Notes under the pieces: generated by a model
The model's database searches: none
Told to the model about the DNA's origin: nothing
The model's input: only the letters and a program-made list of their open reading frames with translations
Position numbers and translations under genes: made by a program
Source: Atribacterota bacterium
GTDB lineage: Bacteria > Atribacterota > Phoenicimicrobiia > Phoenicimicrobiales > Stramentimicrobiaceae
Reading direction: 5' to 3'
DNA: 52,268 bases
NCBI GenBank assembly: GCA_028717805.1
Contig: JAQUNC010000001.1
Coordinates: forward strand, 1 to 52,268
Shown: positions 21,168 to 48,575 of the stretch, piece after piece
Position numbering within the stretch: the stretch's first letter is position 1
How the letters are laid out: every line of letters begins with the position of its first letter

Positions 21168-22247
21168 TTGACCAAAAAAATATCTAAAGAGAATAAGAAA
21201 ATAGTCCTGTTATTATCAATTTTTATATTGTTTGCTATAACACTTTCCGGTTGTAACTGGTTTGGTGAAGGTATTTTAAATGTTTTTGACCCCAAAGCCC
21301 AGATAAGAGTTAATTTTACTGAAATAAAATTTGCTGAAGACGAAGGTACTATTGATTTGGAGATTTACTCTATTAACCAGGTGGAATTTATTGGAGAAGG
21401 TTTTGGCTATAAATATTATAATGATGGAGTATTGATTCCTGATTTAACAAAGACAGTTGGTATGGCATTTTATGTTGCCCACTCTGATTCTCCCGGGACT
21501 CCCGGAGATATAACTGAAATAACAGATTTGCCGTTATATTATCAGCAGGTGTTGGATTATGTTAAGATGAATCCAATGATTACAGAAATTACTTGCACAA
21601 TTAGCTTAATTGGCACTGATGGTGCAGGGCATGGCATATCTAAATCAGTCACAGTAGAATTTCCGGCTATTCAGCCTGGTGTTGACTTTGAGCCTCCAAC
21701 GGCTGAAATAGATGTAATTCCAGATACAACTGGCACAGCTCCGTTTAGTGTAATTTTTGATGCATCAAAATCCAAAGATGATAGGGGTATAGCCAGCTAT
21801 AGTTGGGATTTTGGAGATGGTTCAACAGGAAGTGGAGTTGTTGTTGAGCATACCTATAATAATGTTGGTGCTTATAATGTAACACTTACCGTAACAGATT
21901 ATTTTGGTAATAAAGGATATGCTTTTGAAAGTATTACAGTAGATTACTTTACTGCAATAAATATCATTGTTGTTGCAGTACCAGCATCCTTTGCTAGTGG
22001 TGGAGGAGATTCAACCATAACTGCCTATGTTATAGATTCTGTTGGTGAACCAGTAGTAGGCGTAAATGTAATATTCAGCACTGAAGGAGGAACCTTGTCT
22101 AACACAGTAGATGTTACCGATGCGGATGGTACTGCCACAACTGCGTTGGCAGTCCCGCCTAATTCTACTGATAATAATATAACTATTAAAGTAACTGCGC
22201 ATGTTGGTAGTCAAAGTGGATCTACCACTATCACTGTGCTTAAATAA
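21168..22247 (+). CDS. Lipoprotein with PKD and Ig-like (Big_1-type) domains
   Basis: A 359-residue exported protein. The leader is basic, then hydrophobic (about 14-26), ending in the lipobox LSGC with Cys29 as lipidated residue. Residues 30-175 are unassigned. A PKD domain follows (about 180-265: PFSVIFDASKSKDDRGIASY, SWDFGDGST, VEHTYNNVGAYNVTLTVTD), and then a Big_1-type Ig domain (about 270-359: DSVGEPVVGVNVIFSTEGGT, VTDADGTATTAL). Start TTG 21168 sits six bases after GGGAGGGGA. It directly follows pilQ, so it may be a surface adhesin or a pilus-associated lipoprotein; an accessory role for PilQ is a guess. The repeats are the same broad class as those in the PilV-like protein. Confidence 0.85.
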   Translation: MTKKISKENKKIVLLLSIFILFAITLSGCNWFGEGILNVFDPKAQIRVNFTEIKFAEDEGTIDLEIYSINQVEFIGEGFGYKYYNDGVLIPDLTKTVGMAFYVAHSDSPGTPGDITEITDLPLYYQQVLDYVKMNPMITEITCTISLIGTDGAGHGISKSVTVEFPAIQPGVDFEPPTAEIDVIPDTTGTAPFSVIFDASKSKDDRGIASYSWDFGDGSTGSGVVVEHTYNNVGAYNVTLTVTDYFGNKGYAFESITVDYFTAINIIVVAVPASFASGGGDSTITAYVIDSVGEPVVGVNVIFSTEGGTLSNTVDVTDADGTATTALAVPPNSTDNNITIKVTAHVGSQSGSTTITVLK

Positions 22248-22503: not shown

Positions 22504-22869
22504 GTGATGAAAATGGCTAATAATCAAAATGATGAAAAAAAGACACTAAAAAGAAAATATTTCTGGTTACGCCTCTTGATGCATATTCCCAATTTTTTTA
22601 AATTAGCCTTTCGTCTGGTCAGGGATAAAGATGTTCCTCTGTATCTGAAAATAATTTCTTATGCCGCTTTTATTTATGTTTTATCTCCATATGATTTAAT
22701 TCCGGTTATTTTATTACCCTTTATTGGCTGGATAGAAGATGTCATAATTTTTTATTGCTGTATGAAATTATTGGTTAATCTCAGCCCTCCTGAGGTTGTG
22801 GAAAAACATGTTAAAGCAATTGATATGGAAATGAAGCAACGATTCAGTCAGTTTTATTATAAAAGATAA
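22504..22869 (+). CDS. YkvA/DUF1232-family membrane protein
   Basis: A 121-residue protein. Residues about 42-95 carry the DUF1232 signature: VPLYLKIISYAAFIYVLSPY, DLIPVILLPFIGWIEDVIIF. The SPYDLIP turn between two hydrophobic segments is diagnostic. Function is unknown for the family; some members are called YkvA. The start is uncertain: GTG 22504, ATG 22507 and ATG 22513 are all in frame and none has a strong ribosome binding site. It probably stands alone between the terminator at 22382 and the promoter at 22896. Confidence 0.82.
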   Translation: MMKMANNQNDEKKTLKRKYFWLRLLMHIPNFFKLAFRLVRDKDVPLYLKIISYAAFIYVLSPYDLIPVILLPFIGWIEDVIIFYCCMKLLVNLSPPEVVEKHVKAIDMEMKQRFSQFYYKR

Positions 22870-22895
22870 ATGGTATTTATCGCTATAAACTTTTT

Positions 22896-22924
22896 TTGAA
22901 TTAAAAATCTTACTATGCTAAAAT
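22896..22924 (+). promoter_or_regulatory. Promoter for the LacI-type regulator gene
   Basis: TTGAAT (22896-22901), a 17-base spacer, TAAAAT (22919-22924) with TG one base upstream (extended -10). A leader of about 210 bases would precede the regulator; I see no clear structure in it. Confidence 0.5.
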
Positions 22925-23139
22925 TTTATTGACCACAAAAATGATGAAAATTAGTTAATACTGATAGATTTATGAAGTTTAAAATAATTATATCACCAAA
23001 AAAAGGCTGGGAAGTTTTTAAAATAAAAAAACAGGAAACTTTTAATAAAACTGGAAATGATTTTAAAGATAACTTGCATTACTTTACTAGGATCAATTAA
23101 ATGATTAAGATAAGATATCCATAAGAGGAGTGAGTTAAA

Positions 23140-24153
23140 ATAAGAGAGTATACTATCAAAGATATTGCTGAAATTGCCGGTGTGTCTCAACGAACAGTTT
23201 CCCGCGTAATTAACAGAGAAGCAAGGGTTAGTCAAAAAACAAGGGAAAAGATAAACCGTATTATCAGTTCGACTGGTTATCAGGTCAATTTAGTTGCCAG
23301 GTCACTTCGAAAAAAAAGGACCGGAATCCTCATTGTTTTTTTAGAAAAAAATACCACCAATTATATGGGAAGTTTTACCAATGTTTTTATTAATAATCTG
23401 AATGATATGGCCAATGATTTTGGGTATAAACTTATTGTGTCTAAATCTTCAGCCTATCAGGTGGAAGAAAATAAACATGATGGCTTTTATTTACTAAAAC
23501 ATGGCCTGGCAGATGGAGCTTTTATTTTTGATACCCGTGAGGTGGACATGCGCATTGACTACCTTGTAAACAGTAATATTCCCTTTGTTATAATCGGAAG
23601 AGATAATATATATGATTCTACATCCTTTGTTAACCTGGATAACTTTAAAGTAGGATACATAGGTGCAGAGCATTTGATTAAAAGAGGCAGAAAATCAATC
23701 GTATTCCTTCTGGGTGATAAGAATTTTACCGTTAGTCAAGATCGAGCAAAAGGATTTTTACAAGCTATAAAAGAGTATAATATTATATATGAACTGGTAA
23801 AAATTGAATATGGAATCAGAAGTCCACAAATGGCATATCAGAGGATGAAAAATATTATGGATCAAAAGATTCCAGATGCAGTTTTTGTTTCTGGGGATGA
23901 AAGAGCACTCGGGGTATATCATGAGATACAGGAAAGAAAATTACGAATACCTCAGGATATCGCTGTATTAGGTATTGACAATATTTTAATATCAGAATAC
24001 TATTATCCTGCCCTATCAACGATTGACCATTCTATTTATCAGATGTCCGAATGGGCTATGAAGATATTGGACATCCAGTTAAGAGATTTAACTAACCAAC
24101 CCTGTCGGAGAAAGATATTCCAGCCAAAATTAATCATCCGAGATTCAACATAA
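23140..24153 (+). CDS. LacI-family transcriptional regulator with an apparent ATA start
   Basis: A 338-residue regulator. The N-terminal helix-turn-helix reads REYTIKDIAEIAGVSQRTVS, with RVINREARVSQKTREKI and the hinge-helix segment VNLVARSLRKKRTG following. The ligand-binding domain resembles periplasmic binding proteins (GRDNIYDSTSFVNLDNFKVG, DAVFVSGDERALGVYHEIQE, DIAVLGIDNILISEYYYPAL). No ATG, GTG or TTG exists between the in-frame stop at 23131 and the helix-turn-helix. GTG 23182 would remove half of it. ATA 23140 gives the normal length and lies nine bases after GAGGAG (23125-23130). Thus the gene either uses ATA or has a base error. It should control the downstream transport operon through the palindrome at 24253. 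Confidence 0.85.
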   Translation: MREYTIKDIAEIAGVSQRTVSRVINREARVSQKTREKINRIISSTGYQVNLVARSLRKKRTGILIVFLEKNTTNYMGSFTNVFINNLNDMANDFGYKLIVSKSSAYQVEENKHDGFYLLKHGLADGAFIFDTREVDMRIDYLVNSNIPFVIIGRDNIYDSTSFVNLDNFKVGYIGAEHLIKRGRKSIVFLLGDKNFTVSQDRAKGFLQAIKEYNIIYELVKIEYGIRSPQMAYQRMKNIMDQKIPDAVFVSGDERALGVYHEIQERKLRIPQDIAVLGIDNILISEYYYPALSTIDHSIYQMSEWAMKILDIQLRDLTNQPCRRKIFQPKLIIRDST

Positions 24154-24211
24154 CCTCCAATTCTCCATAATTAAGCCATAAAGATATTAAGATAGCAGTA
24201 AATATTTTTAT

Positions 24212-24240
24212 TTGACAATGAAAAAAGGTAATGATATAGT
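24212..24240 (+). promoter_or_regulatory. Promoter of the sugar transport operon
   Basis: TTGACA (24212-24217), exactly 17 bases, TATAGT (24235-24240), with TG one base upstream of it (extended -10). This is the best promoter in the window. The predicted start point near 24247 is immediately followed by the palindromic operator. Confidence 0.8.
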
Positions 24241-24252
24241 GATAATATATAA

Positions 24253-24270
24253 AATGCCATCGATGGCATT
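24253..24270. promoter_or_regulatory. LacI-type operator palindrome
   Basis: AATGCCATCGATGGCATT is a perfect 18-base palindrome with the central CG typical of LacI-family operators. It lies just after the predicted transcription start, where a bound repressor would block initiation or early elongation. The regulator gene lies 100 bases upstream. Confidence 0.8.
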
Positions 24271-24308
24271 CCTTTTTGTTAATGGTCAAAAAAGGAGGTG
24301 GTAAAGAG

Positions 24309-24335
24309 TTGGCCATTAATTTTATTAAAATTTAA
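24309..24335 (+). CDS. Possible 8-codon leader peptide
   Basis: An AAAGGAGGTG sequence (24291-24300), the strongest Shine-Dalgarno site around, stands eight bases before TTG 24309. That frame reads M-A-I-N-F-I-K-I and stops at TAA 24333-24335, which runs straight into the AAGGGGG site of the binding-protein gene. Translation of this mini-frame could deliver ribosomes to the next start. Evidence is positional only. Confidence 0.35.
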   Translation: MAINFIKI

Positions 24336-24348
24336 GGGGGATAATTAA

Positions 24349-25650
24349 TTGAAAAAAATTAAGCGATCTCTTCATTTTTTTAAAATATTTTTACTTGCTG
24401 CTATTTTTCTGCTGAGTTTTGCTTTTAACGGAATTTCTGCTGATAAAGAGGCCAAAATTTTAGAGATTTATCACTGGTGGACTTCAGGTTCAGAAAAAGC
24501 TGCCATGGACGCATTAATTGGACAATATCTCAATGAATACCCTGATGTTACTGTTTTAGAAAGCCCTGTTGCCGGTGGGGGTGGTTTGGAGATGCGGCAA
24601 GTGATGCATACATTAATGCTAGCAGGAGAAGCTCCTGATTCATTTCAGAGCTATCCGTTTGGTTTGATACCTTACTGGGAAGCAGATATGTTAATTTCTA
24701 TTGATGAGGTATGGACGGATGAAGTGAAAGAAGCTGTACCAGATGTGGTAGAAGATATGTGTAAAATGCCTGATGGCCATTATTATGCCATTCCCTGCGG
24801 AGTGCAACAGGCTGGCGTTTTCTTTTACAATACCAAGATATTTGCAGAAAACGGATTAACTGAACCGAAAACATGGGATGATTTTTGGAACATTTGCGAA
24901 ACTCTAAAGAAAAAAGGCATTGATCCAATTGCACTGGGTGATAAAAATGCCTGGCCATTAACATATATTTTCCGTACCCTTACTGCCAGTCAAGGAGTTA
25001 CCTATTATGAAGATTTTATTAATGGGAAAGTAAGCACAGAATCACATCTGCAGCTGGTTGATACACTGGAAAAAATGGTTAAGATGAGTCAATACTATAA
25101 TTCTGATCATGCAGCTCTAACCTGGGATGAAGCAATGGGGCGTGTTGTTACTGGTGCAGCAGGATTTAGTATTATGGGTGACTGTGGTGCTGGTGAATTT
25201 ATTGTAGCAGGAAAGGAATATCCTGATGATTTTGGTGCTTTTTATGCTCCCGGAGCTGCTGATATTTTTGGGGTGAGCTTGGATGTATTTGCATTGCCAA
25301 AAGGCACTAAGCATCCCGTTCAGGCAATGAACTGGTTTAAGATTATTGCTACGAAGGAAGCTCAAAGTTCTTTTGCAGGACCTAAGGGTTTTATCCCTGC
25401 CAGAACTGATTCATTAATGGGTGAAGGTTTCTCTAATTATCAGAAAGATGAATCAGCTGTTCACTTCAAGGAAGCTGCATATTATCGTCCTGGAATGTGG
25501 AGTGGTACTCCAGCAACCTTTATGGGTCATTTGCAGGATATTATATCTCAGGAAATCGGAATTAATAAGGATGCTGCGGCTGCTGCGAAAGCCATAGCCA
25601 GGATTGTTCAAGAAACTGATTGGCCAAAACAATGGGATTTAACACCATAA
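24349..25650 (+). CDS. ABC transporter sugar-binding protein (extracellular family 1)
   Basis: A 433-residue protein with a signal peptide (residues 1 to about 31: basic start, FFKIFLLAAIFLLSFAF core, cleavage near ISA-DKE). The mature chain starts LEIYHWWTSGSEKAAMDALI, the form seen in family 1 binding proteins for glucose, mannose and oligosaccharides. PVAGGGGLEMRQVMHTLMLA and PDSFQSYPFGLIPYWEA follow; GVQQAGVFFYNTKIFAENGL is the usual hinge-crossing strand. It delivers a carbohydrate to the permeases encoded next. Start TTG 24349 lies eight bases after AAGGGGG. The ligand cannot be read from sequence; the GH38 gene in the same run suggests a mannose-containing compound. Confidence 0.9.
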   Translation: MKKIKRSLHFFKIFLLAAIFLLSFAFNGISADKEAKILEIYHWWTSGSEKAAMDALIGQYLNEYPDVTVLESPVAGGGGLEMRQVMHTLMLAGEAPDSFQSYPFGLIPYWEADMLISIDEVWTDEVKEAVPDVVEDMCKMPDGHYYAIPCGVQQAGVFFYNTKIFAENGLTEPKTWDDFWNICETLKKKGIDPIALGDKNAWPLTYIFRTLTASQGVTYYEDFINGKVSTESHLQLVDTLEKMVKMSQYYNSDHAALTWDEAMGRVVTGAAGFSIMGDCGAGEFIVAGKEYPDDFGAFYAPGAADIFGVSLDVFALPKGTKHPVQAMNWFKIIATKEAQSSFAGPKGFIPARTDSLMGEGFSNYQKDESAVHFKEAAYYRPGMWSGTPATFMGHLQDIISQEIGINKDAAAAAKAIARIVQETDWPKQWDLTP

Positions 25651-25701
25651 ATGAAAATTTTATGTTACTGTAGTATTAGTAAATAGTATTGATAGAGAGG
25701 T

Positions 25702-25752
25702 AATGTAAGGTTTTCATTAATCTAAAAAATAGATTGATGGAAGCCTTACATT
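25702..25752 (+). promoter_or_regulatory. Long intergenic hairpin between binding-protein and permease genes
   Basis: AATGTAAGG (25702-25710) pairs with CCTTACATT (25744-25752), and TTTTCATTAATCTA with TAGATTGATGGAAG inside, leaving a loop of about five A. There is no T-run after it. Such structures after binding-protein genes stabilise the upstream message and lower permease expression. Confidence 0.65.
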
Positions 25753-25786
25753 ATTAATGTATGATTAAAAAAATAGGAGCAGTTAA

Positions 25787-26662
25787 TTGGAACAGGGTAA
25801 GAAAGAAAAACTAATTGCTTTAATGGTCATTTTGCCTGGTCTCATCATTATATTCATCTTTTATTATATTTTTACAGGATGGAATTTTATTATTTCCTTA
25901 ACTGATTGGGAAGGATTTATTCCCAGTTATAATATTATCGGACTAAAGAATTATATACAGCTTTTTCATGATTCTCTATTTTGGATTTCATTAAAAAATA
26001 ATATATTATTAATTGTTCTTTTTGTTCCCGGAGTAATAATTATAGGTTTATTAATGGCAATTTTGCTTGATCAAAATGTGAAGGGAGAAGGGATTTTCCG
26101 CAGCATATATCTATTGCCTTTCTCGCTCTCTTTCGTAGTAACGGCAACTTTATGGTCTTGGATGTACAGTCCCAGGGATGGAATAATCAATTTTATTCTT
26201 CAAAAAATGAACCTTGAATCTTTTCAGCAAGGATGGATTACAAGTCCCCAGCTGGTAATGTATTGTATTATCATTGCTCTTATCTGGCAATTTGCCGGTT
26301 ATTCCTGTATTATTTTTTTGGCAGGAATCCGATCAATTCCCCAAACTCAAATAGCTGCAGCCAGAGTGGATGGAGCTTCAAATATTACCATTTATAGGCG
26401 AATTATTTTACCTCAATTAAAAGCATCTTTTATTACATCTTTTATTGTTTTTATGTGTTTTGCATTGAAGGCATTTGATTTTATCTGGGTTCTTAATCGT
26501 GGTGGACCTGGATATTCTTCCCATATTTTGGGGATAACTATGTTTAAAGAGACTTTTTCTTTTGATCGTTTTGCTTATGGGGCATCTTATTCAACAATAA
26601 TTTTATTACTCAGTATGGTTATTGTTATTCCCTTTTTATTACGTATTTATAGGGAGAAATAG
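25787..26662 (+). CDS. Sugar ABC transporter permease (MalF/UgpA-type)
   Basis: A 291-residue membrane protein with about six helices. The cytoplasmic EAA loop that contacts the ATPase reads AAARVDGASNITIYRRIILP (about 188-207). PGLIIIFIFYYIFTGWNFII at the N-terminus and FKLxRxG-like VLNRGGPGYSSHILGITMF fit the binding-protein-dependent permease family. The start is TTG 25787, eight bases after AGGAG. It ends three bases before the second permease. Confidence 0.92.
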   Translation: MEQGKKEKLIALMVILPGLIIIFIFYYIFTGWNFIISLTDWEGFIPSYNIIGLKNYIQLFHDSLFWISLKNNILLIVLFVPGVIIIGLLMAILLDQNVKGEGIFRSIYLLPFSLSFVVTATLWSWMYSPRDGIINFILQKMNLESFQQGWITSPQLVMYCIIIALIWQFAGYSCIIFLAGIRSIPQTQIAAARVDGASNITIYRRIILPQLKASFITSFIVFMCFALKAFDFIWVLNRGGPGYSSHILGITMFKETFSFDRFAYGASYSTIILLLSMVIVIPFLLRIYREK

Positions 26663-26664
26663 CT

Positions 26665-27480
26665 ATGAATACAATCAAACCGACTCGGATAGTCTTGTAT
26701 GGATTGTTAATATTACTAGTTATATACAGCCTGCTTCCATTATGGAGTTGTATTGTTACTGCCTTAAAAAGCTCAAAAGAGGTTGTGCTAACAACGCCGA
26801 TTACACCACCGGTGGAGCCAACAATGGTAAAACTTATTGAATCCATCGATTTATTAAAAAGGTCTTTAATCAATAGCATAATCCTGGTCTTTTCCGGTGT
26901 TATGGTTGCCACTTTCTTTGGTTCTTTTTTAGGATACATCTTTTCCAAGTGTAAATTTCGAGGGTCATTTTTTATCTTCATTCTGGTGGTATTATGTCTT
27001 TATATCCCACCCCAGGTGCAACTGATACCTATGGTTCGCACTATTTCAAGATTGCATTTATTTGGAAATCTGGGTGCTCTGGTTTTGTTGTATATGTTGT
27101 TTGGGATTCCTATGTGTACTTTTGTCTTTAAAACATTCTATGATGATGAAATACCAAATAGTTTCATTAATGCTGCCAAGGTGGATGGTGCAGGTATATG
27201 GACAATTTACCGACGTGTTATTCTACCGCTCTCAGTCCTTCCTTTTGTGGTAGCTGCCCTGCTACAGGTAGTTGTAATTTGGAATGATTTTATTTGGGGA
27301 CTGGTCCTGACCAGTGGTAAGGCGAATTTACCGATAACAGTTGCCATGGCCAATTTAAAGGGTTCTTTCGTGGCGGAATGGAATTTACAAATGGCAGGTG
27401 CCTTATGGGTATCTTTGCCTACCTTGATTATTTTTATCTTTTTAGGAAAGTATATTATTCGTGGTTATAGTAATGTATAG
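26665..27480 (+). CDS. Sugar ABC transporter permease (MalG/UgpE-type)
   Basis: A 271-residue membrane protein with about six helices. SLLPLWSCIVTALKSSKEVV is the usual post-first-helix segment of MalG-type permeases. The EAA loop is INAAKVDGAGIWTIYRRVILP (about 170-190, shown in part). VWNDFIWGLVLT and ANLKGSFVAEWNLQMAG are further family marks. ATG 26665 follows GGGAG. It forms the heterodimeric channel with the preceding gene product. Confidence 0.92.
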   Translation: MNTIKPTRIVLYGLLILLVIYSLLPLWSCIVTALKSSKEVVLTTPITPPVEPTMVKLIESIDLLKRSLINSIILVFSGVMVATFFGSFLGYIFSKCKFRGSFFIFILVVLCLYIPPQVQLIPMVRTISRLHLFGNLGALVLLYMLFGIPMCTFVFKTFYDDEIPNSFINAAKVDGAGIWTIYRRVILPLSVLPFVVAALLQVVVIWNDFIWGLVLTSGKANLPITVAMANLKGSFVAEWNLQMAGALWVSLPTLIIFIFLGKYIIRGYSNV

Positions 27481-27491
27481 GAGGAAACAGT

Positions 27492-28598
27492 ATGGCCAAC
27501 TTAACCATTAAAGGATTGACTAAAAAATATGATGAAACAATTGCTGTAAATAAGTTGGATTTAGAAGTTAAAGATCGAGAATTCCTAGTTTTAGTGGGAC
27601 CCTCGGGTTGTGGCAAAACAACTGTTTTAAACAGTATTGCTGGTCTGGTAAATATCAATGAAGGGGAAATATGGTTTGGGGAAGAATTAGTTGATGCCCC
27701 ACAGAAGAAAATATTTAAAATTCCCCAGCAACGTGGAGTAGCAATGGTTTTTCAGGATTACGCAATCTATCCACATATGACAGTTTATTCCAATATGGCA
27801 TTTCCTCTGGAAGTTCGGAAAATAGAGAGTAAGGAGATAGAGAAAAGAGTAACACAAGCTGCAAAATTATTGGGTATCGATCATTTACTCCAGAGAAAAC
27901 CTAAGGCGTTGAGTGGTGGGCAAAAACAACGGATTGCTTTAGGCAGAGCAATAGTAAGAAATCCAAAAATATTTTTGATGGATGAGCCATTAGCTAATCT
28001 TGACGCTAAACTTCGTGTACAGGCACGGGTGGATTTAAAAAAATTGCAAGAAGAATTAGGAGTCACCACTATCTTTGTGACCCACGACCAGATTGAAGCC
28101 ATGACCATGGGTGACCGAATTGCATTAATGAACAATGGCCGGATTGAACAGATTGGGACACCGCTTGATTTGTATCTAAAACCGAAAAACATATTTGTCG
28201 CTGATTTTATCGGTAGCCCGCCTATTAATAAATTCCAGGGAAATCTAGTGAAGAAAGAAAAAAACATCGGTATTGATTTGCGGTTTTTATTTTATCCCTT
28301 AACTGCAGAACAAAGTGAATCCATTGTTGACAAAGAATTTTCCAAAATAATCATCGGAATAAGGCCAGAAAATGTTCTGATTGTTCGTAATCAAAAAGAA
28401 GGCTTATTTCAAGCAAACATACTACGCATTGAACCAGTTGGGAAAGAGTATAACATTCATCTCAAAGTAGAACAGACGCTATTCATATCAATTGAAAATT
28501 CTGTAGATTATTTTCGGGAAGGAGATACAGTGTGGATTACTTTTTCTAAAGATTATATTTATCTATTTAATCAAGAATCCGGTGAAGTTCTTTCTTAA
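27492..28598 (+). CDS. Sugar ABC transporter ATPase (UgpC/MsmX/MalK-type)
   Basis: A 368-residue ATPase. Walker A is GPSGCGKT (36-43), the signature LSGGQKQR (140-147), Walker B FLMDEP (161-166), the D-loop LANLDAKL, and the switch His is in FVTHDQIEAMTMGDR (about 196-210). Residues about 240-368 form the MalK-type C-terminal TOBE/OB domain (KIIIGIRPENVLIV). ATG 27492 follows AGGAGG by seven bases. It powers the two permeases encoded upstream. Having its own ATPase, this system does not rely on a shared MsmX-type subunit. Confidence 0.94.
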   Translation: MANLTIKGLTKKYDETIAVNKLDLEVKDREFLVLVGPSGCGKTTVLNSIAGLVNINEGEIWFGEELVDAPQKKIFKIPQQRGVAMVFQDYAIYPHMTVYSNMAFPLEVRKIESKEIEKRVTQAAKLLGIDHLLQRKPKALSGGQKQRIALGRAIVRNPKIFLMDEPLANLDAKLRVQARVDLKKLQEELGVTTIFVTHDQIEAMTMGDRIALMNNGRIEQIGTPLDLYLKPKNIFVADFIGSPPINKFQGNLVKKEKNIGIDLRFLFYPLTAEQSESIVDKEFSKIIIGIRPENVLIVRNQKEGLFQANILRIEPVGKEYNIHLKVEQTLFISIENSVDYFREGDTVWITFSKDYIYLFNQESGEVLS

Positions 28599-28645
28599 TT
28601 ACATCTTTTTCTAAATCATTAATCTTTGTTTTGAGGAGAAATCGA

Positions 28646-28813
28646 GTGTCAAAAAAAATGAAACAACTAATAATTTTTTCTGTTTCCATTATCGCTTCAG
28701 CTATTCTATTTTTTTATTTGTTAGAAACCTTACTGGTCTGGAGATTGTTTTTTGCTATTATAATGTTCTTGTCTACCTATATTATGTTTGATGGATTTGT
28801 AAAATATAGATGA
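28646..28813 (+). CDS. Small membrane protein, about 55 residues
   Basis: GTG 28646 follows GAGGAG (28633-28638) by seven bases and fits better than the upstream in-frame TTG 28631, which precedes that site. The product has two hydrophobic segments: LIIFSVSIIASAILFFYLL and LVWRLFFAIIMFLSTYIMF. A short basic end follows. No family recognised. It sits inside the transport operon, between the ATPase and amidase genes, and could be an accessory transporter subunit. Confidence 0.55.
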   Translation: MSKKMKQLIIFSVSIIASAILFFYLLETLLVWRLFFAIIMFLSTYIMFDGFVKYR

Positions 28814-28858
28814 GTGATAAAGTTATGATTGTTAGTTTATTGAGGAGGATTATCTTTG

Positions 28859-29680
28859 ATGAGTAAGAAATTTAAAATTGCACTGGCACAAATCGATTGT
28901 CAGCTTAAGGATAAGGATAAAAATATTGACCATACCCTGGAAATTTTAGACCAAGTTAAAGGACATGCCGATATCATCTGTTTCCCGGAGCTATTTACTA
29001 CTGGTTATGATTTTGAAGTAATCGGAAGTGCCTTTTATGACCTGGCAGAAACGATTCCGGGCGAAACTACTGCAATATTGTGCAAGAAAGCCAGACAATA
29101 CAAGATGGCTATCATCGGAGGCATTGTGGAAAAAGATGAGTTCAGTCCAGATATCCTCTATGATTCTGCCATTGTTATCAATAAAGAGGGAGAAATAGCC
29201 GGGAAATATCGAAAATATTTTCTGTATCCCTTAGAACATAGATATTTTAAAGCCGGGAAAGAAATTCCAATATTTAATCTGGGAACTATCCGAGTGGGAG
29301 CTGCAATCTGTTATGACCATGCTTTTCCTGAATTATTTCGAGTGCTTACTCTGAAGGGTGCGCAAATTATCTTTATTCTTTCGGCAATACCGGAAGGATT
29401 TCAGTATCTTTTAAATTTGCGGGCTTGTGCCAGAGCACAGGATAACCAGGTCTTTATTGCTCATGTTAACAGAGTTGGGCAGGATGGGGAAACTCGATAT
29501 TGTGGCTTGAGCAAAATTGTAAATCCCAGAGGTGAACTTATATCAGAAGCCTCACCGACTTCGGAAGATGTGATTATTGAGCAGATTAATCTAGAAATGA
29601 TTATGCAGGAAAGAAAACAGGAGAAAATCACAAAAAGCCTTAGAGCTGAAATTTATCAGGAGCTAAAACGGCTTATATAA
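28859..29680 (+). CDS. Carbon-nitrogen hydrolase (nitrilase superfamily)
   Basis: A 273-residue cytoplasmic enzyme with the superfamily's Glu-Lys-Cys triad: Glu44 in CFPELFTTGY, Lys119 in GKYRKYFLYP, Cys151 in GAAICYDHAFPE. A second Glu usual for the family lies in YPLEHRYFKAG. Members hydrolyse amides, N-carbamoyl compounds or nitriles; this one looks amidase-like, but the substrate cannot be told. TTG 28856 directly before ATG is also possible; GAGGAGG ends eight bases before TTG. Its place between a sugar transporter and an alpha-mannosidase suggests that the imported compound carries an amide, or that it is a housekeeping passenger. Confidence 0.88.
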   Translation: MSKKFKIALAQIDCQLKDKDKNIDHTLEILDQVKGHADIICFPELFTTGYDFEVIGSAFYDLAETIPGETTAILCKKARQYKMAIIGGIVEKDEFSPDILYDSAIVINKEGEIAGKYRKYFLYPLEHRYFKAGKEIPIFNLGTIRVGAAICYDHAFPELFRVLTLKGAQIIFILSAIPEGFQYLLNLRACARAQDNQVFIAHVNRVGQDGETRYCGLSKIVNPRGELISEASPTSEDVIIEQINLEMIMQERKQEKITKSLRAEIYQELKRLI

Positions 29681-29771
29681 CATTTCATTTTTTCAAATAC
29701 TTCTTAATCACCCTTTTGAAACATAATTGAATACCAAAATAATTTATTTTTCTATTAATTAATCGGTCTTT

Positions 29772-32700
29772 ATGAAAAAAGCAATGAATAAAATGTCAAA
29801 AGAAATAAAAATACATATTATTTCTCATACTCATTGGGATCGGGAATGGTTTTTAGACAATAAATATACCAGTGAGTGGTTAATTCCTTTTTTTAACTCT
29901 CTATTTTCAATACTAAAAAAAGAGACTGAATATACATTTGTATTGGATGGACAGAGTCTGATTGTGGAAGATTTTTTTAAGGAATTGAGAAGACAAAAAA
30001 GGGATTCTTCAAAATATCGTAAATTAATACAAAAGTATTGTAAACAGAGGAGGGTTCTAATTGGCCCCTACTATATGCAACCTGACAGTCAATTAGTCAG
30101 CGGCGAATCCTTAGTCCGAAATTTGTTAATTGGACATCAAATTGCGGAAAGACTTGGTAGTATCATGAAAGCGGGATGGTTGTTAGATAATTTTGGTCAG
30201 GTATCTCAGACTGTTCAAATACATGATCAGTTTAACCTGAAAGGATTGTTTGTTTGGAGGGGAGTTGAAATGGAACCGACTGGGATCCGTTCTGAATTTT
30301 TATGGGAAAGTCCAGATAAAACTAAATTACTTGCAATCTATCTCTTAAGCAGTTATCGGAATGCTATGCGCCTGGGAAGGTACAAAGAAATTATGAATGA
30401 AAGAATTTTAAATGAAGTTCAAAAAATATTTCCTTTTGCCACTACTTCCAATGTTCTGTTAATGAACGGCTATGACCAGGAAATGGTCCCGGATGAATTT
30501 ATTTCAGATTTAAAAAGACAATCTTTCCCGAATATGCAAGTAACACAAAGTACGCCTGAAAAATATCTAGAAACCATTAAAAAAGAAAATCCTGAATTAA
30601 AGGTACTGAAGGGAGCTCTTTATAGTGGACGATACATATCAGTATTTCCAGGTACACTATCAACGAGGGTATATTTAAAGTTTCTGAATGACCAATGTCA
30701 GCAAGAACTGGAAAGGTATGCAGAGCCTTTATCAGTTCTATCTTGGTTGGCAGGATGGAAATATAATAGAAAAGAATTAATGGACTGTTGGAAAAAATTA
30801 TTAAAGAATCATCCCCATGATAATATTTGTGGAGTTAGTATCGATGATGTTCATACGGGTATGGAGAAAAGCTTTCATCATATTTTGTCAAAATCACGTC
30901 ATATTTCAAATAATAAACTGAATGAACTCGCTATGAGTGTTGATACCTCAGCTAAACCAAAAGATTCCACAACTTACTTGTTGTTTAATCCTACTCAAGA
31001 GATTCGAAATAAGGTCCTCAGCATCACCAGAAATCAGAAGAGAAAAACTACTTTTATTGATTCACAGGGAAGAGAATTACTGCAAGAAAAAGTGAATACG
31101 AATAGTTATCATGTTTATGTAGAGGGAATTCCCTCTTTCGGATTTAAAGCGATTTATACCAGTAATAAGCAAGAAAAGTCTTCTCGGAGTTCAAAATTGA
31201 CCATTTCTGATCAAGTGATTGTAGAAAAAAATAGAATAGAAAATAAATTTGTACAAATTACAATAAATAATAATGGGAACATAGATGTGTTTGATAAAAT
31301 CAATCAATGTCATTATCGAGGACTGGGAAGTTTTATTGATAGTGCTGATGCTGGAGACGAATACAACTATTCCTATCCTGAAAATGATATTATTTTTAGT
31401 ACTGAAAATTGTAAAGCAAGAATAGAAATAATTGAAAAAAGCAGTCTAAAGGTAATTGTGAAAATAAGTCTGGGTATGCAATTACCTGAATCTCTCTCTG
31501 CAGACCGGAAAACACGTTTAAATAGATACAGAGAATTTCCAATTATTACCTGGATTTCTCTCGAAGCCCAATCACCTATTATTCGCTTTAAGACAAGTTT
31601 AAAAAATACCGTCAAGGATCATCGGTTAAGAGTTTTATTTTCTTCAGATATCGATACCCGGTATTCTTTTGCAGGCACTCAATTTGATATTACAAGACAT
31701 CGGATTAAAGTAGGGACTTTTGATGATCATAATATCCCGGACAATGTGCAACGTATTATGATTGGAGCAAGAGAGAAAAAGCCCGTAATGACTTTCCCCC
31801 ATTGTAGTTTTGTTGATATCAATAATGGGCAAAGAGGAATAGCATTATTAGATAGAGGCCTAAAGGAGTATGAAATTCTTCCTGAGCGAAACACAATTGC
31901 CATTACTCTTTTTCGATCAATTGGTTGGTTGGCCAGGGGGGATCTCTTAACCAGGATCGGTGATGCCGGACCTACAATTTTTACCCCTGAAGCTCAATGT
32001 TTACGTCAAATGACTTTTCACTATGCCCTTGTCTTCCACCAGGGAGATTGTTACCAGGGAGGTATACCCCGATTAGCGGAAGAGTTTAATATCCCTCCCA
32101 GGTTAGTGAAGACTAATAATGGTCATAAGGGTAATTGGAAAGAGAATAAGAGTATATTACAGGTAAAATCGAAAAACGATATTTTGAGAGTAACTGCACT
32201 AAAAAAGATGGAAAAAGGAAGTGCCACTATTCTTAGATTATTCAACTGTTCTCCGAATAAGGTAAGAGGAGAGATTTCAGCAGATAATATAATTCGAAAA
32301 GTATATCTGGTTAATCTTAAGGAAGAAATCATCAAGGAGATTCAAACTTTAAATAAATACAAATTTAAATTAACTGTAAAACCCAAAAAGATTGTTACCC
32401 TAAAATTATTCTTAGAAAAGCAGAGATTAATTGGTACAAAGAGAGATTTTATTTCCAATCAGAAAAATGTTGAATTTTTAGACATTGAAAATAGTTATGA
32501 AGCAAATTTTAATACCCTCAAGACAGTTCCATTGCTTTCCAGGAGTGATATTCTTCAAGAAGAGCTGAGAATAAAGGAAATCGAGAAAAAACTTGAAAAA
32601 GCAAAAAAGAGGATTATTAACATTAGAAATAGGATGCATAAAGATGACCATCCTGATTCAGCAAATTCAAGAGAATTTGATTTTTGTTACCATAGGGCGA

Positions 32701-32975
32701 GAGGAGATGTAGAAGCCTTTCAAAGAGAGATGCTGGAAGCAAATTTATCGCTATTGCTGGCAAAGAAAAAATATCTCCAGACTTATGCTCAGAAACCCAG
32801 TTACATTGGGGAGTCCTTGAAAGAAATAAATGAGAAATTAAGAAAAATAGGATATGCCTTGAATAATGCCAGGATTAATAAAAGAGCTTATGAATATATT
32901 GTTGAATATTACCAACATCGTCTAAATATTCTTCAAAATAAGACCACTCTTCCATCTAATTTTAAGCAGAATTAA
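29772..32975 (+). CDS. GH38 alpha-mannosidase with coiled-coil C-terminal extension
   Basis: A 1067-residue enzyme without signal peptide, so cytoplasmic. The N-terminal catalytic domain has SHTHWDREW (zinc ligands His21 and Asp23), QPDSQLVSGESLVRNLLIG, GWLLDNFGQVSQ with Asp139 as nucleophile, and NHPHDNICGVSIDDVH (His347-His349) as further ligand region. The middle and beta-rich domains follow (to about 880). Residues about 920-1067 are a charged, helical, probably coiled-coil tail (LRIKEIEKKLEKAKKRIINI) that I do not expect in GH38. GH38 retaining enzymes cleave alpha-mannosides. ATG 29772, 29784 or 29793 may start it; none has a clear ribosome binding site. With the transporter it would hydrolyse an imported alpha-mannoside. 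Confidence 0.9.
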   Translation: MKKAMNKMSKEIKIHIISHTHWDREWFLDNKYTSEWLIPFFNSLFSILKKETEYTFVLDGQSLIVEDFFKELRRQKRDSSKYRKLIQKYCKQRRVLIGPYYMQPDSQLVSGESLVRNLLIGHQIAERLGSIMKAGWLLDNFGQVSQTVQIHDQFNLKGLFVWRGVEMEPTGIRSEFLWESPDKTKLLAIYLLSSYRNAMRLGRYKEIMNERILNEVQKIFPFATTSNVLLMNGYDQEMVPDEFISDLKRQSFPNMQVTQSTPEKYLETIKKENPELKVLKGALYSGRYISVFPGTLSTRVYLKFLNDQCQQELERYAEPLSVLSWLAGWKYNRKELMDCWKKLLKNHPHDNICGVSIDDVHTGMEKSFHHILSKSRHISNNKLNELAMSVDTSAKPKDSTTYLLFNPTQEIRNKVLSITRNQKRKTTFIDSQGRELLQEKVNTNSYHVYVEGIPSFGFKAIYTSNKQEKSSRSSKLTISDQVIVEKNRIENKFVQITINNNGNIDVFDKINQCHYRGLGSFIDSADAGDEYNYSYPENDIIFSTENCKARIEIIEKSSLKVIVKISLGMQLPESLSADRKTRLNRYREFPIITWISLEAQSPIIRFKTSLKNTVKDHRLRVLFSSDIDTRYSFAGTQFDITRHRIKVGTFDDHNIPDNVQRIMIGAREKKPVMTFPHCSFVDINNGQRGIALLDRGLKEYEILPERNTIAITLFRSIGWLARGDLLTRIGDAGPTIFTPEAQCLRQMTFHYALVFHQGDCYQGGIPRLAEEFNIPPRLVKTNNGHKGNWKENKSILQVKSKNDILRVTALKKMEKGSATILRLFNCSPNKVRGEISADNIIRKVYLVNLKEEIIKEIQTLNKYKFKLTVKPKKIVTLKLFLEKQRLIGTKRDFISNQKNVEFLDIENSYEANFNTLKTVPLLSRSDILQEELRIKEIEKKLEKAKKRIINIRNRMHKDDHPDSANSREFDFCYHRARGDVEAFQREMLEANLSLLLAKKKYLQTYAQKPSYIGESLKEINEKLRKIGYALNNARINKRAYEYIVEYYQHRLNILQNKTTLPSNFKQN

Positions 32976-33296
32976 TAGCCTAAATGGATAGCTTGTTAAA
33001 TTAGTGACTGCTAATAAAGTAAGGTGACCTGTAGAGAAAATCATTATGGTATTAAATGTTGCGGAATAAAAACGGGTTAAGCCTATTTTCGAAAAATTCA
33101 TTTTAAATTATGGTCTTTACGATTCACTCCCTATCAATTTAGGTAGTTAAAAAGAAAGTAATATCTCAATCTTCTTTAATTTAATTCGGTGTTTCCCCTA
33201 AAAACCTCATTGCATTATCAGTTAATAAAATATAAAATAGAGATAGGCAGAATAACTGGAATAAAATAAAAATTTATAAAATTGGAGGGATGTATT
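32976..33296. other. Intergenic region, mostly featureless
   Basis: About 320 bases without a gene. No terminator seen after the GH38 gene. TTGCAT (33210-33215) and TATAAA (33231-33236) are only 15 bases apart and make a poor promoter. AGATAGGCAGAAT at 33241-33253 recurs directly before the rimO start. The ribosome binding site GGAGGG (33284-33289) ends the region. Confidence 0.5.
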
Positions 33297-34445
33297 GTGA
33301 AAGAAATCACTAAAAAAACAATTGAAAAGCTGATTGAGGAAAAAGATGATCTTAGTATTTCAATTTATATGCCGACTATATCTGCAGCAAGTAGTGACGT
33401 AAAAAAAATGCCCATCCAACTAAAAAACCTGCTTAATAATGTTAAAAAGGAATTACAGGATAAATATAATGTGGATATTCGTAATATTGAAGACTTATTA
33501 AAACCAGCCACGAATTTATTGGGAGATAGAGTTTTTTGGCAAAACCAGAAAGAAGGATTAGCTATCTTTGTCAGTCCCGGACAATTCCACTATTTTCGCT
33601 TAAACAGTTCGTTAGCGGAGAAGTCTTCAGTAAGTAAGTATTTTAATATTATACCTTTGATTCCAGAGACTATGTTTAATAATATTTACTATGTATTAGC
33701 CTTAAGCAGAAATATGAACAGAATATTCCGGGCTACCAGAGGAAGTATTATGCAGTTAGATATTGAAGGTATTCCGGAGAGCTTAAAAGAAATATCTAAA
33801 TATTCCGAAAACGAGAAGAGTCTTTCTTCGCATACCTCTGGCTCAGAAGGTGCTGGAACAATTTTCCATGGAGTAGGAGAAATTGATGCTGATAAGAGAG
33901 AAGAGTTAATGCAATATTTCCGACAAATAGATCAAGGTTTGAATAAATACCTGGATAAAAAAACTAAGTCTCCTTTAATTGTAATATGTGTAAAAGATCT
34001 TTTCCCGATGTATTATGAAGCAAACTCTTATCCCTACTTATTAGAAGAAAGTATAGAAGGCAATCCTGATGAAATTTCACCCGATACAATTTTAAAGAAC
34101 GCCTTTCCCATAGCTTCAGGTTATTTCCATAGCCAATTGGAAAACATCACATCTTTATATCATAATATAAAAGGTACCGGTAAGACCTCCACCCAGTTGG
34201 AAGATGTCGTTTCAGCTGCATACTTTAGTAGAGTAGAACAATTGTTAATAAAGAATAGGGCTTCTCAGTATGGTAGTTTTAATCCGGAAGAGAATCGGGT
34301 ATATCTGACAGAACAAGGAAATGAACAATATGATTTATATAATTTTGCTGCTATAAAGACTATTTCCAATGGTGGACAGGTATATATTCTTGATGAAGAA
34401 AAAATGCCTGATGGAGAAAACATTATTGCTTTTTACCGATTCTAA
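33297..34445 (+). CDS. baeRF-family protein (bacterial release-factor-1-like), function unknown
   Basis: A 382-residue protein. Start GTG 33297 is seven bases after GGAGGG; the frame opens at 33282, but that start would lie before the ribosome binding site. The layout matches bacterial archaeo-eukaryotic release factor-like (baeRF) proteins. SISIYMPT is near the N-terminus, FWQNQKEGLAIFVSPGQFHY near 85, YVLALSRNMNRIFRATRG near 140, GVGEIDADKREELMQYFRQI near 200, PLIVICVKDLFPMYYEANSY near 230, and a C-terminal domain ending VYILDEEKMPDGENIIAFYR. Related proteins are thought to bind ribosomes, but no activity is established that I can point to. It is flanked by gene-free stretches on both sides. 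Confidence 0.6.
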   Translation: MKEITKKTIEKLIEEKDDLSISIYMPTISAASSDVKKMPIQLKNLLNNVKKELQDKYNVDIRNIEDLLKPATNLLGDRVFWQNQKEGLAIFVSPGQFHYFRLNSSLAEKSSVSKYFNIIPLIPETMFNNIYYVLALSRNMNRIFRATRGSIMQLDIEGIPESLKEISKYSENEKSLSSHTSGSEGAGTIFHGVGEIDADKREELMQYFRQIDQGLNKYLDKKTKSPLIVICVKDLFPMYYEANSYPYLLEESIEGNPDEISPDTILKNAFPIASGYFHSQLENITSLYHNIKGTGKTSTQLEDVVSAAYFSRVEQLLIKNRASQYGSFNPEENRVYLTEQGNEQYDLYNFAAIKTISNGGQVYILDEEKMPDGENIIAFYRF

Positions 34446-34943
34446 AAGGTGGTTGGTTTAAGAAGGTTATAGTTTTCAGCTTGTGTTTATATATTTTTGG
34501 GTAAATTAGAATGGGATTGCTTCCCTCATCTCTTAATCTGGTTAAGGGATAGGAGAAGCAATTTCAAGTATTTATTCTCACAAATGGTATTCTTTAGCCA
34601 TTAGCGTTAATTAGTTTACAGTGGTTAATTTTTAATTAAGAGCAATAGATTAATATTTCTATAAATAAAAATACTTGCTTTTTGCTTATTAATTATTACT
34701 TATCACTGTATTTTTGAAACATTATACGGAATAGGTAATATTATAGTGCACTATACACTCAATGAGTAAGACTAATAAGTCGTTGTAAGGTAGAATAGCA
34801 ATTATGGCAATCTAATACTCTTAAATTTACACTGACGTTATCAGGTATACTGATTGAACCTATTTACCATATTTCTTCCCAATGATACTATATTTAAAAA
34901 TATATTTGAAAAAGATATTTATATGTTATAGATAGGCAGAATT
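34446..34943. other. Intergenic region with a long hairpin and GTATAC-type elements
   Basis: About 500 bases without a gene. It contains the hairpin at 34516-34562, palindromic ATAGTGCACTAT near 34743, and otherwise A/T-rich sequence. AGATAGGCAGAAT (34930-34942) lies directly before the rimO start and repeats 33241-33253. No certain promoter for rimO was found. Confidence 0.5.
34516..34562. repeat. Intergenic inverted repeat after the baeRF-like gene
   Basis: ATTGCTTCCCTCATCTCTTA pairs, with a few wobbles and mismatches, with the sequence ending GGATAGGAGAAGCAAT. The outer arms ATTGCTTC and GAAGCAAT are perfect. The arms echo the GAAGCAAT ends of repeat family A, so it may be a related element. 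No T-run follows. Confidence 0.5.
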
Positions 34944-44332: not shown

Positions 44333-44410
44333 CGGGGTGTAGCGCAGTTTGGCTAGCGCACCTGCTTTGGGAGCAGGGGGTCGGAGGTTCAAATCCTCTC
44401 ACCCCGACCA
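44333..44410 (+). tRNA. tRNA-Pro (anticodon TGG)
   Basis: Acceptor CGGGGTG pairs with CACCCCG, discriminator A, CCA encoded (44408-44410). Anticodon stem CCTGC/GCAGG with loop TTTGGGA, anticodon TGG at 44368-44370. T arm GGAGG-TTCAAAT-CCTC present. First gene of a seven-tRNA cluster. Confidence 0.95.
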
Positions 44411-44413
44411 TGA

Positions 44414-44489
44414 GCGGGAATAGCTCAGTTGGTAGAGCACTAGCCTTCCAAGCTGGTTGTCGCGGGTTCGAGACCCGTTTCCCGCTCCA
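44414..44489 (+). tRNA. tRNA-Gly (anticodon TCC)
   Basis: Acceptor GCGGGAA pairs with TTCCCGC, discriminator T as usual for tRNA-Gly, CCA encoded (44487-44489). Anticodon stem CTAGC/GCTGG with one G-T pair, loop CTTCCAA, anticodon TCC. T loop TTCGAGA. Only three bases from tRNA-Pro. Confidence 0.95.
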
Positions 44490-44510
44490 TTTTATGAAAA
44501 TATTAAGCCT

Positions 44511-44587
44511 GCGCCTGTAGCTCAATAGGATAGAGCAACGGACTTCTAATCCGTAGGCTGGGGGTTCGACTCCCTCCAGGCGCGCCA
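44511..44587 (+). tRNA. tRNA-Arg (anticodon TCT)
   Basis: Acceptor GCGCCTG pairs with CAGGCGC, discriminator G, CCA encoded (44585-44587). Anticodon stem ACGGA/TCCGT, loop CTTCTAA, anticodon TCT. T arm GGGGG-TTCGACT-CCCTC. Shares most of its body with the tRNA-Arg (TCG) at 44686. Confidence 0.95.
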
Positions 44588-44599
44588 TGAAAGTATAAT

Positions 44600-44678
44600 G
44601 GTGGGCGTAGCTCAGTCCGGTTAGAGCACTGGATTGTGGCTCCAGTGGTCATGGGTTCAAATCCCATCGCTCACCCCA
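44600..44678 (+). tRNA. tRNA-His (anticodon GTG)
   Basis: Acceptor GTGGGCG pairs with CGCTCAC (one G-T), discriminator C, CCA encoded (44676-44678). G at 44600 is available as the extra G-1 opposite C73, the identity element of tRNA-His. Anticodon stem CTGGA/TCCAG, loop TTGTGGC, anticodon GTG. Confidence 0.95.
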
Positions 44679-44685
44679 TTTCTGA

Positions 44686-44759
44686 GCGCTCGTAGCTCAA
44701 TTGGACAGAGCTGTGGACTTCGGATCCAAGGGCTGGGGGTTCGACTCCCTCCGAGCGCG
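44686..44759 (+). tRNA. tRNA-Arg (anticodon TCG), no encoded CCA
   Basis: Acceptor GCGCTCG pairs with CGAGCGC, discriminator G, then CCT rather than CCA, so the 3' end must be completed by a CCA-adding enzyme. Anticodon loop CTTCGGA, anticodon TCG. Anticodon stem GTGGA/TCCAA has a G-A mismatch at its outer pair. D and T arms are intact. It is the only one of the seven without CCA. Confidence 0.88.
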
Positions 44760-44837
44760 CCTATCTTGATGCTAAATACTAATAACGAGTTCATTTAAAC
44801 TGAATATGTTATACTATATACGGTATACTAATTATAT

Positions 44838-44913
44838 GGGCCGTTAGCTCAGTTGGCAGAGCACCTGACTTTTAATCAGGGTGTCACAGGTTCGAATCCT
44901 GTACGGCCCACCA
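44838..44913 (+). tRNA. tRNA-Lys (anticodon TTT)
   Basis: Acceptor GGGCCGT pairs with ACGGCCC, discriminator A, CCA encoded (44911-44913). Anticodon stem CCTGA/TCAGG, loop CTTTTAA, anticodon TTT. The 78-base spacer before it contains CGGTATAC, but I see no good -35 box there. Confidence 0.95.
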
Positions 44914-44926
44914 TTATTAAAAATTG

Positions 44927-45011
44927 GCGAGGGTGGTGGAACTGGTAGACACGCTGGATTTAGGATCCAGTGGGTAACTCCATGCGGGTTCGAGTCCCGC
45001 CTCTCGCACCA
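44927..45011 (+). tRNA. tRNA-Leu (anticodon TAG)
   Basis: A class II tRNA with a long variable arm (TGGGTAACTCCA). Acceptor GCGAGGG pairs with CTCTCGC (one G-T), discriminator A, CCA encoded (45009-45011). Anticodon stem CTGGA/TCCAG, loop TTTAGGA, anticodon TAG. Confidence 0.95.
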
Positions 45012-48349: not shown

Positions 48350-48575
48350 AAATATATTGGTGTTGAAAGGATAGAGTAAATAAGATCTAACTATGAATAG
48401 GTTTTATTGAAAGTCCTCCTGGAGCCTTTAGCTGAAACAGTAGTAAGTTTCAACGGTAGTACCGTTAAAATTGTTTAAGTGCCTATTCTTTATATCTTTT
48501 TACTGAAGAACAGGAATTAAGGTGGTACCGCGAACCCTTTTCGCCCTTAGAGAGGATGAAAAGGGTTTTTTTATG
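48350..48575 (+). promoter_or_regulatory. T-box riboswitch of valS
   Basis: The conserved T-box AATTAAGGTGGTACCGCG lies at 48515-48532, directly before the terminator stem AACCCTTTTC (48533-48542) / GAAAAGGGTT (48558-48567) and its T-run. The leader upstream folds: AATAGG (about 48397) can pair with CCTATT (about 48482), with GAAAC/GTTTC and AACGGT-AGT-ACCGTT hairpins inside. Uncharged tRNA-Val would favour the antiterminator. A GTA appears twice in the AGTAGTAA loop, but I cannot fix the specifier codon by eye. Confidence 0.9.

Follow-up and report, generated by a model that had tools for sequence, protein, structure and literature searches.

The window, a 52,268-nucleotide stretch from an Atribacterota bacterium (positions 1 to 52,268 of contig JAQUNC010000001.1, assembly GCA_028717805.1), carries on its forward strand an operon in which genes for a LacI-family regulator, a sugar-type ABC importer, a small membrane protein and a nitrilase-superfamily amidase precede a gene for a GH38 alpha-mannosidase. 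We consider it moderately probable that this operon imports and starts dismantling a compatible solute of the mannosyl-glycerate type, most likely mannosylglucosylglycerate (MGG, alpha-Man-1,2-alpha-Glc-1,2-glycerate). The neighbours of the GH38 clade, the locations of the LacI orthologues and a recurring putative operator together led to this reading of MGG-type import followed by mannose removal. The new elements are the GH38 clade and a scavenging-type operon built from one of its members.

The GH38 reading frame (29772-32975, + strand) is unbroken and was assigned to an MGG-linked clade using Pfam, a tree and a sequence motif. All four Pfam models (GH38 N-terminal, middle, C-terminal and C2 domains) scored above cut-off, and this was the single GH38 gene found in the window genome. 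The metal-binding and catalytic residues H21, D23, D139, D235 and H349 are all present and are invariant in the GH38 alignment, their positions having been transferred through alignment from the available part of the S. pyogenes GH38 paper (PMC2815779). By family, the protein is predicted to be a Zn-dependent retaining alpha-mannosidase.

Searches covered 61 genomes, comprising the window genome (G000), 49 others of its phylum and 11 further genomes. Full-length GH38 orthologues were found in four of these, at 69 % identity in G009 and 56–57 % in G022, G010 and G013; with weaker matches included, 22 of the 61 genomes were represented. G009 retains every gene from LacI to GH38, with 69–85 % identity per protein, so the operon is no chance juxtaposition. 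Named genomes were scanned with five aligned GH38 proteins, and the best 80 of 580 confirmed matches were retained as named loci, spanning 3.5 to 23.3 kb, with some neighbourhoods short. A maximum-likelihood tree was calculated for 105 GH38 proteins (109 less four identical ones, with frames below 650 residues excluded), which include all 80 named loci and in which five genes are each represented by two partial rows. The window protein was placed in a nine-member clade with SH-aLRT support of 100, together with the four orthologues, Marinifilum caeruleilacunae (L069), a Spirochaetes metagenome-assembled genome (MAG; L070), a Spirochaeta MAG (L071) and an Anaerolineae MAG (L144), the last being a long branch flagged by the tree tool. 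E. coli MngB fell outside this clade, in another supported GH38 group.

The clade is also distinguished by a C-terminal extension (approximately residues 885-1067; 32424-32972, + strand), predicted to be helical. The motif G..LN.AR..[KR]R within it is present in eight of the nine clade rows, the window's among them, and in none of the 90 non-clade rows whose end is complete, six rows that end at a locus edge being uninformative; L144 carries the variant LNQMRIKRRIFDY. An AlphaFold model built from four sequences placed helices in the extension at residues 924-955, 964-1005 and 1016-1056, with low confidence (pLDDT 57, pTM 0.53).

All seven members other than those of the window and G009 have a putative glucosylglycerate-degrading gene adjacent to GH38 or one gene away (six phosphorylase-like, one hydrolase-like), and six of the seven have an MggS-like gene. 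Both MggS-like and GH13_18-like genes were found in G022, G010, G013, L069, L071 and L144. In the first three of these, GH38 stands with an ABC importer unlike that of the window, a glycosyltransferase resembling MggS and a GH13 protein resembling sucrose phosphorylase; the first 142 residues of the G010 phosphorylase lie at a contig end, with the remainder on another contig, and the MggS of G013 is a fragment at a contig start. In L070, a glycerate kinase is followed by a protein matching PF22422 at 198 bits; among NCBIfam models it scores best against glucosylglycerate hydrolase, at 185 bits with a cut-off of 550. The MggS-like and phosphorylase genes of G009 are on a contig other than that of its window-type operon.

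Glycerate kinase genes are located beside or near GH38 in L069, L070 and L144, where we take them to be MOFRL-type enzymes with that function, and beside the phosphorylase in G010. Glycerate kinase is common, being present in 43 of the 61 genomes including that of the window, and carries little weight. In the window genome, a CdaR-like regulator, a glycerate kinase and a TRAP importer stand in series on contig 29 (L229, 1199-7041), a cluster probably concerned with glycerate uptake and use.

Among the named loci (best 80 of 580), an MggS-like gene was found near GH38 in four, corresponding to three of the four clade members versus one of the 76 others. The one non-clade locus, L082, belongs to a second GH38 lineage. 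This second lineage is also seen in G019 (L153, L211, L150), where a GH38 gene with 33.9 % identity to that of the window ends just before an ABC importer and a copy of the palindrome described below; taken with L082, this suggests two separate recruitments of GH38 into MGG clusters. Across the 50 genomes of the phylum, this GH38 was found in five, MggS (at least 46 % identity) in eight and both in four (hypergeometric 0.0014, kinship ignored). In a shuffle test of an ‘MGG context’ label on the tree, 500 of 500 shuffles scored as low, so that the test was uninformative; the label was preset and included G009, whose genes are on another contig, and L070, for which nothing beyond the glycerate kinase was known at that stage.

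The available part of a 2020 review (PMC7178133) describes (T/S)ETN as a mark of strict glucosylglycerate phosphorylase (GH13_18). TETN is present in all seven of the GH38-clade-linked phosphorylases, that of G009 included (7 of 10 sequences overall), and TQTN in three further phosphorylase-like sequences, two from G019 and one from G020. A GH130-type fragment lies beside the glucosylglycerate phosphorylase-like gene of G020 (L062, 3-536) and matches a beta-1,2-mannobiose phosphorylase model at 296 bits (cut-off 450).

The LacI regulator (23140-24153, + strand; LacI helix-turn-helix and Peripla_BP_3 above Pfam cut-off) has orthologues of at least 58 % identity in six of the 61 genomes, its own included. 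Outside the window and G009, these orthologues are located by MggS (G015 and G024), between MggS and the phosphorylase (G019) or by the phosphorylase where the contig ends (G020), so that four of four stand beside MGG-type genes. The start of the regulator is probably ATA at 23140, compared with GTG at 23182 from the ORF finder. This ATA is preceded by a Shine-Dalgarno-like GGAG, and the stretch from an in-frame TGA at 23131 to the ATA contains no ATG, GTG or TTG. At the orthologous loci (L042, L150, L151, L154), the matching start is ATA in G009, G019 and G015 and ATG in G024, and the non-standard start seems to be conserved in four of the five orthologues inspected.

Downstream of the regulator gene, a sigma-70-like promoter (24212-24240, + strand; TTGACA-17-TATAGT with TG ahead of the second hexamer) has 11 of 12 consensus bases and was the top candidate of the 61 listed by the promoter scan in 22800-34500 (shuffles: mean 50). 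A perfect 18-base palindrome, AATGCCATCGATGGCATT, begins 12 bases after the promoter (24253-24270, no strand) and is the probable LacI operator. With up to two mismatches the palindrome was found at four sites in nine genomes, versus 0.33 expected when the base composition of the window is assumed for all nine. One of these is the window site, with no mismatches and the only one in its genome; one is approximately 280 bases before MggS in G015, and two are before ABC operons in G019, the first after the end of a GH38 gene and the second on a contig that also encodes glycerate and ROK kinases. Every one of them is closely preceded by a -10-like box, identified by scan in the window and by eye elsewhere. 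G009 has a site with three mismatches at the place matching that of the window. Three additional three-mismatch sites in the window genome were dropped, two lying by genes without a visible link and one (C37) upstream of another ABC importer operon.

What was observed is the gene content, the clade and its neighbourhoods, a regulator family in common and a palindrome that recurs; from these we infer substrate, import, repression and the individual reactions as follows. With no substrate present, the LacI protein would occupy the palindrome that closely follows the promoter, blocking transcription until the solute or a breakdown product releases it. The solute would enter intact through the binding protein and ABC importer, and the GH38 protein would then take off the terminal mannose, leaving glucosylglycerate. 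In relatives, glucosylglycerate would be split by the phosphorylase (or hydrolase), with the glycerate passing to glycerate kinase. In the window cell, in whose genome neither splitting enzyme was found, the mannose may be used and the glucosylglycerate kept as an osmolyte, an unrecognised enzyme may split glucosylglycerate, or the GH38 protein may have shifted to another mannoside. The window organism would be a likely scavenger, with import and mannose removal kept and no MGG synthase found in its genome. The mannosylglycerate-pathway (MPG) synthase TIGR02460 matched in none of the 61 genomes, with a positive control matching in Thermus composti, so the clade context favours MGG over mannosylglycerate or its amide.

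Several results weigh against MGG as the substrate. Neither MggS nor a PF22422 hydrolase was matched in the window genome, and the phosphorylase had no orthologue there, only a partial match of 31 % to a different GH13 protein; the window operon has neither MggS nor a glucosylglycerate-degrading gene alongside GH38. The best match of all nine MggS-like proteins scored was NF041101 (MggS), at 195–469 bits and in each case under the NCBIfam cut-off of 640, and the phosphorylases that were scored were under the sucrose phosphorylase cut-off; the names MggS and phosphorylase are consequently based on best match, motif and context. Palindrome sites with three mismatches numbered 11 versus 13 for a reversed control in the nine genomes, and as they were no commoner than the control, counts were limited to two mismatches or fewer. 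There was no site at up to four mismatches near the MggS operon of G009, and none was found in G020 or G024, both of which have a LacI orthologue. A regulator of CdaR type is an alternative candidate for binding the palindrome: CdaR-like genes are found near MGG-type genes in G015 and G013 (best match PRK11477, 211–234 bits, cut-off 612) and one is present in the window genome (best match PRK11477, also below 612), with G013 having the CdaR-like gene and no palindrome site. Finally, G019 has a window-type transporter and amidase (59–75 % identity), with a binding protein after the amidase and a LacI protein of 29 % identity, and no GH38 there, so the transporter may carry something else.

The G019 arrangement counts in favour of general alpha-mannoside uptake (mannobiose or manno-oligosaccharides), in which the amidase would serve another nitrogen compound entering through the same importer or would be a passenger. 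We assign this alternative a small but appreciable probability: the next glucosylglycerate enzymes were not found in the window genome, the binding protein resembles glucose-binding proteins, and the S. pyogenes GH38 enzyme cleaves alpha-1,3-mannobiose according to the available part of its description (PMC2815779). However, MGG genes are indicated by each of four lines: the clade, its neighbourhoods, the LacI orthologues and the palindrome.

The initial annotation had described a nitrilase-superfamily amidase beside a GH38 alpha-mannosidase in a sugar transport operon, and this description was borne out, with both ORFs intact and above Pfam cut-off. It had also proposed an amidated alpha-mannoside such as mannosylglyceramide as a substrate requiring both activities. 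A compatible solute of mannosyl-glycerate type is likely, as above, while the action of amidase and mannosidase on one substrate was unsupported; mannosylglyceramide is a possible substrate, though without support.

The amidase reading frame (28856-29680, + strand) is unbroken, with a TTG start at 28856 followed by ATG at 28859. Membership in the nitrilase superfamily is indicated by CN_hydrolase (PF00795, 184 bits) and by E45, K120 and C152, at what we take to be the motif positions of the Glu-Lys-Cys triad, which are invariant in three of three close relatives aligned. Housekeeping amidases, a match to which (omega-amidase being the example) would have refuted that proposal, were rejected since no curated NCBIfam subfamily cut-off was reached: scores were 76 bits for deaminated-glutathione amidase NF033621 (cut-off 355), 55 bits for NF043013 (cut-off 500) and 111 bits for N-carbamoylputrescine amidase (cut-off 410), and no model named omega-amidase was among the 11 hits. 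The best profile was NF040852 ‘nitrilase’ (160 bits, curated cut-off 500) and the best solved relative the nitrilase 3ivz (141 bits), presumably from Pyrococcus. The only other amidase match in the window genome is one 553-residue reading frame, which by its size we take to be NAD synthetase.

Among 386 genomes, a profile of three close amidases scored 545–554 bits in three (G000, G009 and G019) and no higher than 183.5 bits in the remaining 383. In three of three cases the amidase is 3' of this transporter's ATPase with a gene for a 55-amino-acid (aa) protein between, and this constant gene order marks the amidase and the 55-aa membrane protein as part of the transporter module. The amidase thus travels with the transporter (3/386 genomes) and is not tied to the mannosidase as had been supposed; its relatives (BLAST E 1e-10) were found in none of the 80 named GH38 loci (best 80 of 580). 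The two outcomes that had been named as refuting the proposal gave a mixed result: absence of co-occurrence in relatives is nearly the case, with the pair in one of four relatives that have this GH38 (two of five genomes, own included), whereas no housekeeping subfamily is reached. Co-occurrence as a general rule was rejected on the counts of named loci and of genomes with this GH38. Five neighbourhoods of distant amidase relatives (168–184 bits) contained no sugar importer by eye or by BLAST against a small reference set.

Consistent with this pattern, we consider it unlikely that a neutral amide (mannosylglyceramide or MGG amide) is imported, converted by the amidase to the acid and ammonia, and then relieved of its mannose by GH38. 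The amidase does adjoin GH38 in the window and G009 and its triad is intact, and mannosylglyceramide is present in Rhodothermus marinus and favoured at high salt, as stated in the available part of PMC1224877. Nevertheless, the amidase is missing from three of five genomes with this GH38 (at least 56 % identity, own included) and from 80 of 80 named loci, G019 has amidase and transporter without GH38 there, and MPG synthase was found in none of the 61 genomes.

The lack of an MPG synthase match likewise opposes a mannosylglycerate operon, in which GH38 would split mannosylglycerate to mannose and glycerate in the manner of MngB without phosphorylation, and which we regard as quite improbable. 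Such an operon would have no need of a glucosylglycerate-splitting enzyme, and a CdaR-like gene, glycerate kinase and TRAP binding protein do occur together on contig 29; the sole NCBIfam match of the window GH38 is PRK09819 mannosylglycerate hydrolase. However, that match (484 bits) is far under its cut-off of 1138, MngB is only 28 % identical and in another supported GH38 group, the glycerate kinase is common, and MngB uses the 6-phospho form (available part of PMC2815779), whereas the importer here is of ABC type. Least probable of all is salvage of an undescribed neutral osmolyte, MGG amide (mannosylglucosylglyceramide), in which the amidase would yield the acid, GH38 would remove the mannose and the 55-aa protein would aid the importer; if true, cells of the community would exchange charged and neutral forms of the solute.

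With MGG as the preferred substrate, the operon can be compared with known systems. E. coli mngRAB is alike in combining a regulator, an importer and a cytoplasmic GH38 protein for a scavenged mannosyl-glycerate solute, and MngB is 28 % identical to the window protein over 849 residues; mngRAB differs in its PTS import of a phosphorylated substrate, and MngB, at 877 aa, has no C-terminal extension. The MGG/glucosylglycerate clusters (MggS, GH13_18 phosphorylase and glycerate kinase) hold the orthologues of the window GH38 and share the same LacI family member and the palindrome, but the window operon lacks MggS and the phosphorylase and has another importer, the amidase and the 55-aa membrane protein. 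The S. pyogenes GH38 alpha-1,3-mannosidase (2wyh) is of the same fold family and has all five metal and catalytic residues of the window protein, which it matches at 281 bits over two stretches; it has no C-terminal extension and a different context.

In the available part of the 2020 review (PMC7178133), glucosylglycerate phosphorylase is called the only known possible glucosylglycerate sink in many producers. For demannosylation of MGG, no MGG mannosidase was found by title in the literature searched, and novelty holds within that literature. The GH38 clade, located near MggS-like and glucosylglycerate-degrading genes, spans Bacteroidota, Spirochaetota, Chloroflexota and the phylum of the window. 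This clade is a strong candidate for the missing MGG mannosidase; it would close the mannose-removal gap, offering a single enzyme that can be tested and a motif by which to recognise it.

The genes upstream of the amidase and GH38, all on the same strand, are those of the LacI regulator and the importer. The importer consists of a sugar-type solute-binding protein (24349-25650, +; SBP_bac_1, 109 bits), two ABC permeases (25787-26662 and 26665-27480, both +; BPD_transp_1) and a MalK/UgpC-type ABC ATPase with a TOBE domain (27492-28598, +; PRK11650, 421 bits, cut-off 432). By Pfam, this is the composition of a family 1 sugar ABC importer, which we take to be the type named CUT1. The best solved relative of the binding protein is the glucose-binding protein 2b3b (168 bits), presumably Thermus-type. 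A hairpin with a 20-pair stem (25704-25750), terminator-like in the scan, lies between the binding-protein and permease genes and could determine how much binding protein is made relative to the membrane parts. An Rfam search gave no match inside the operon.

The 55-aa protein (28646-28813, + strand, GTG start) is small and hydrophobic and probably a two-helix membrane protein; no Pfam family was matched. Its gene is common to the three amidase operons, and between G000 and G009 the changes at the three codon positions number 17/4/22, being fewest at the second. This 55-codon frame and the promoter plus palindrome (24212-24270) had been overlooked in the initial annotation.

Directly 3' of the operon, 33282-34445 encodes a bacterial aeRF-like family protein (118 bits against a ribosome hibernation factor model, cut-off 330), a neighbour that is kept in G009. 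Elsewhere in the window, the product of 21168-22247 combines a PKD domain with a bacterial Ig-like group 1 domain and, judged by its start, is probably a lipoprotein; seven tRNA genes in series and a T-box leader are found at 44333-45008 and 48354-48551.

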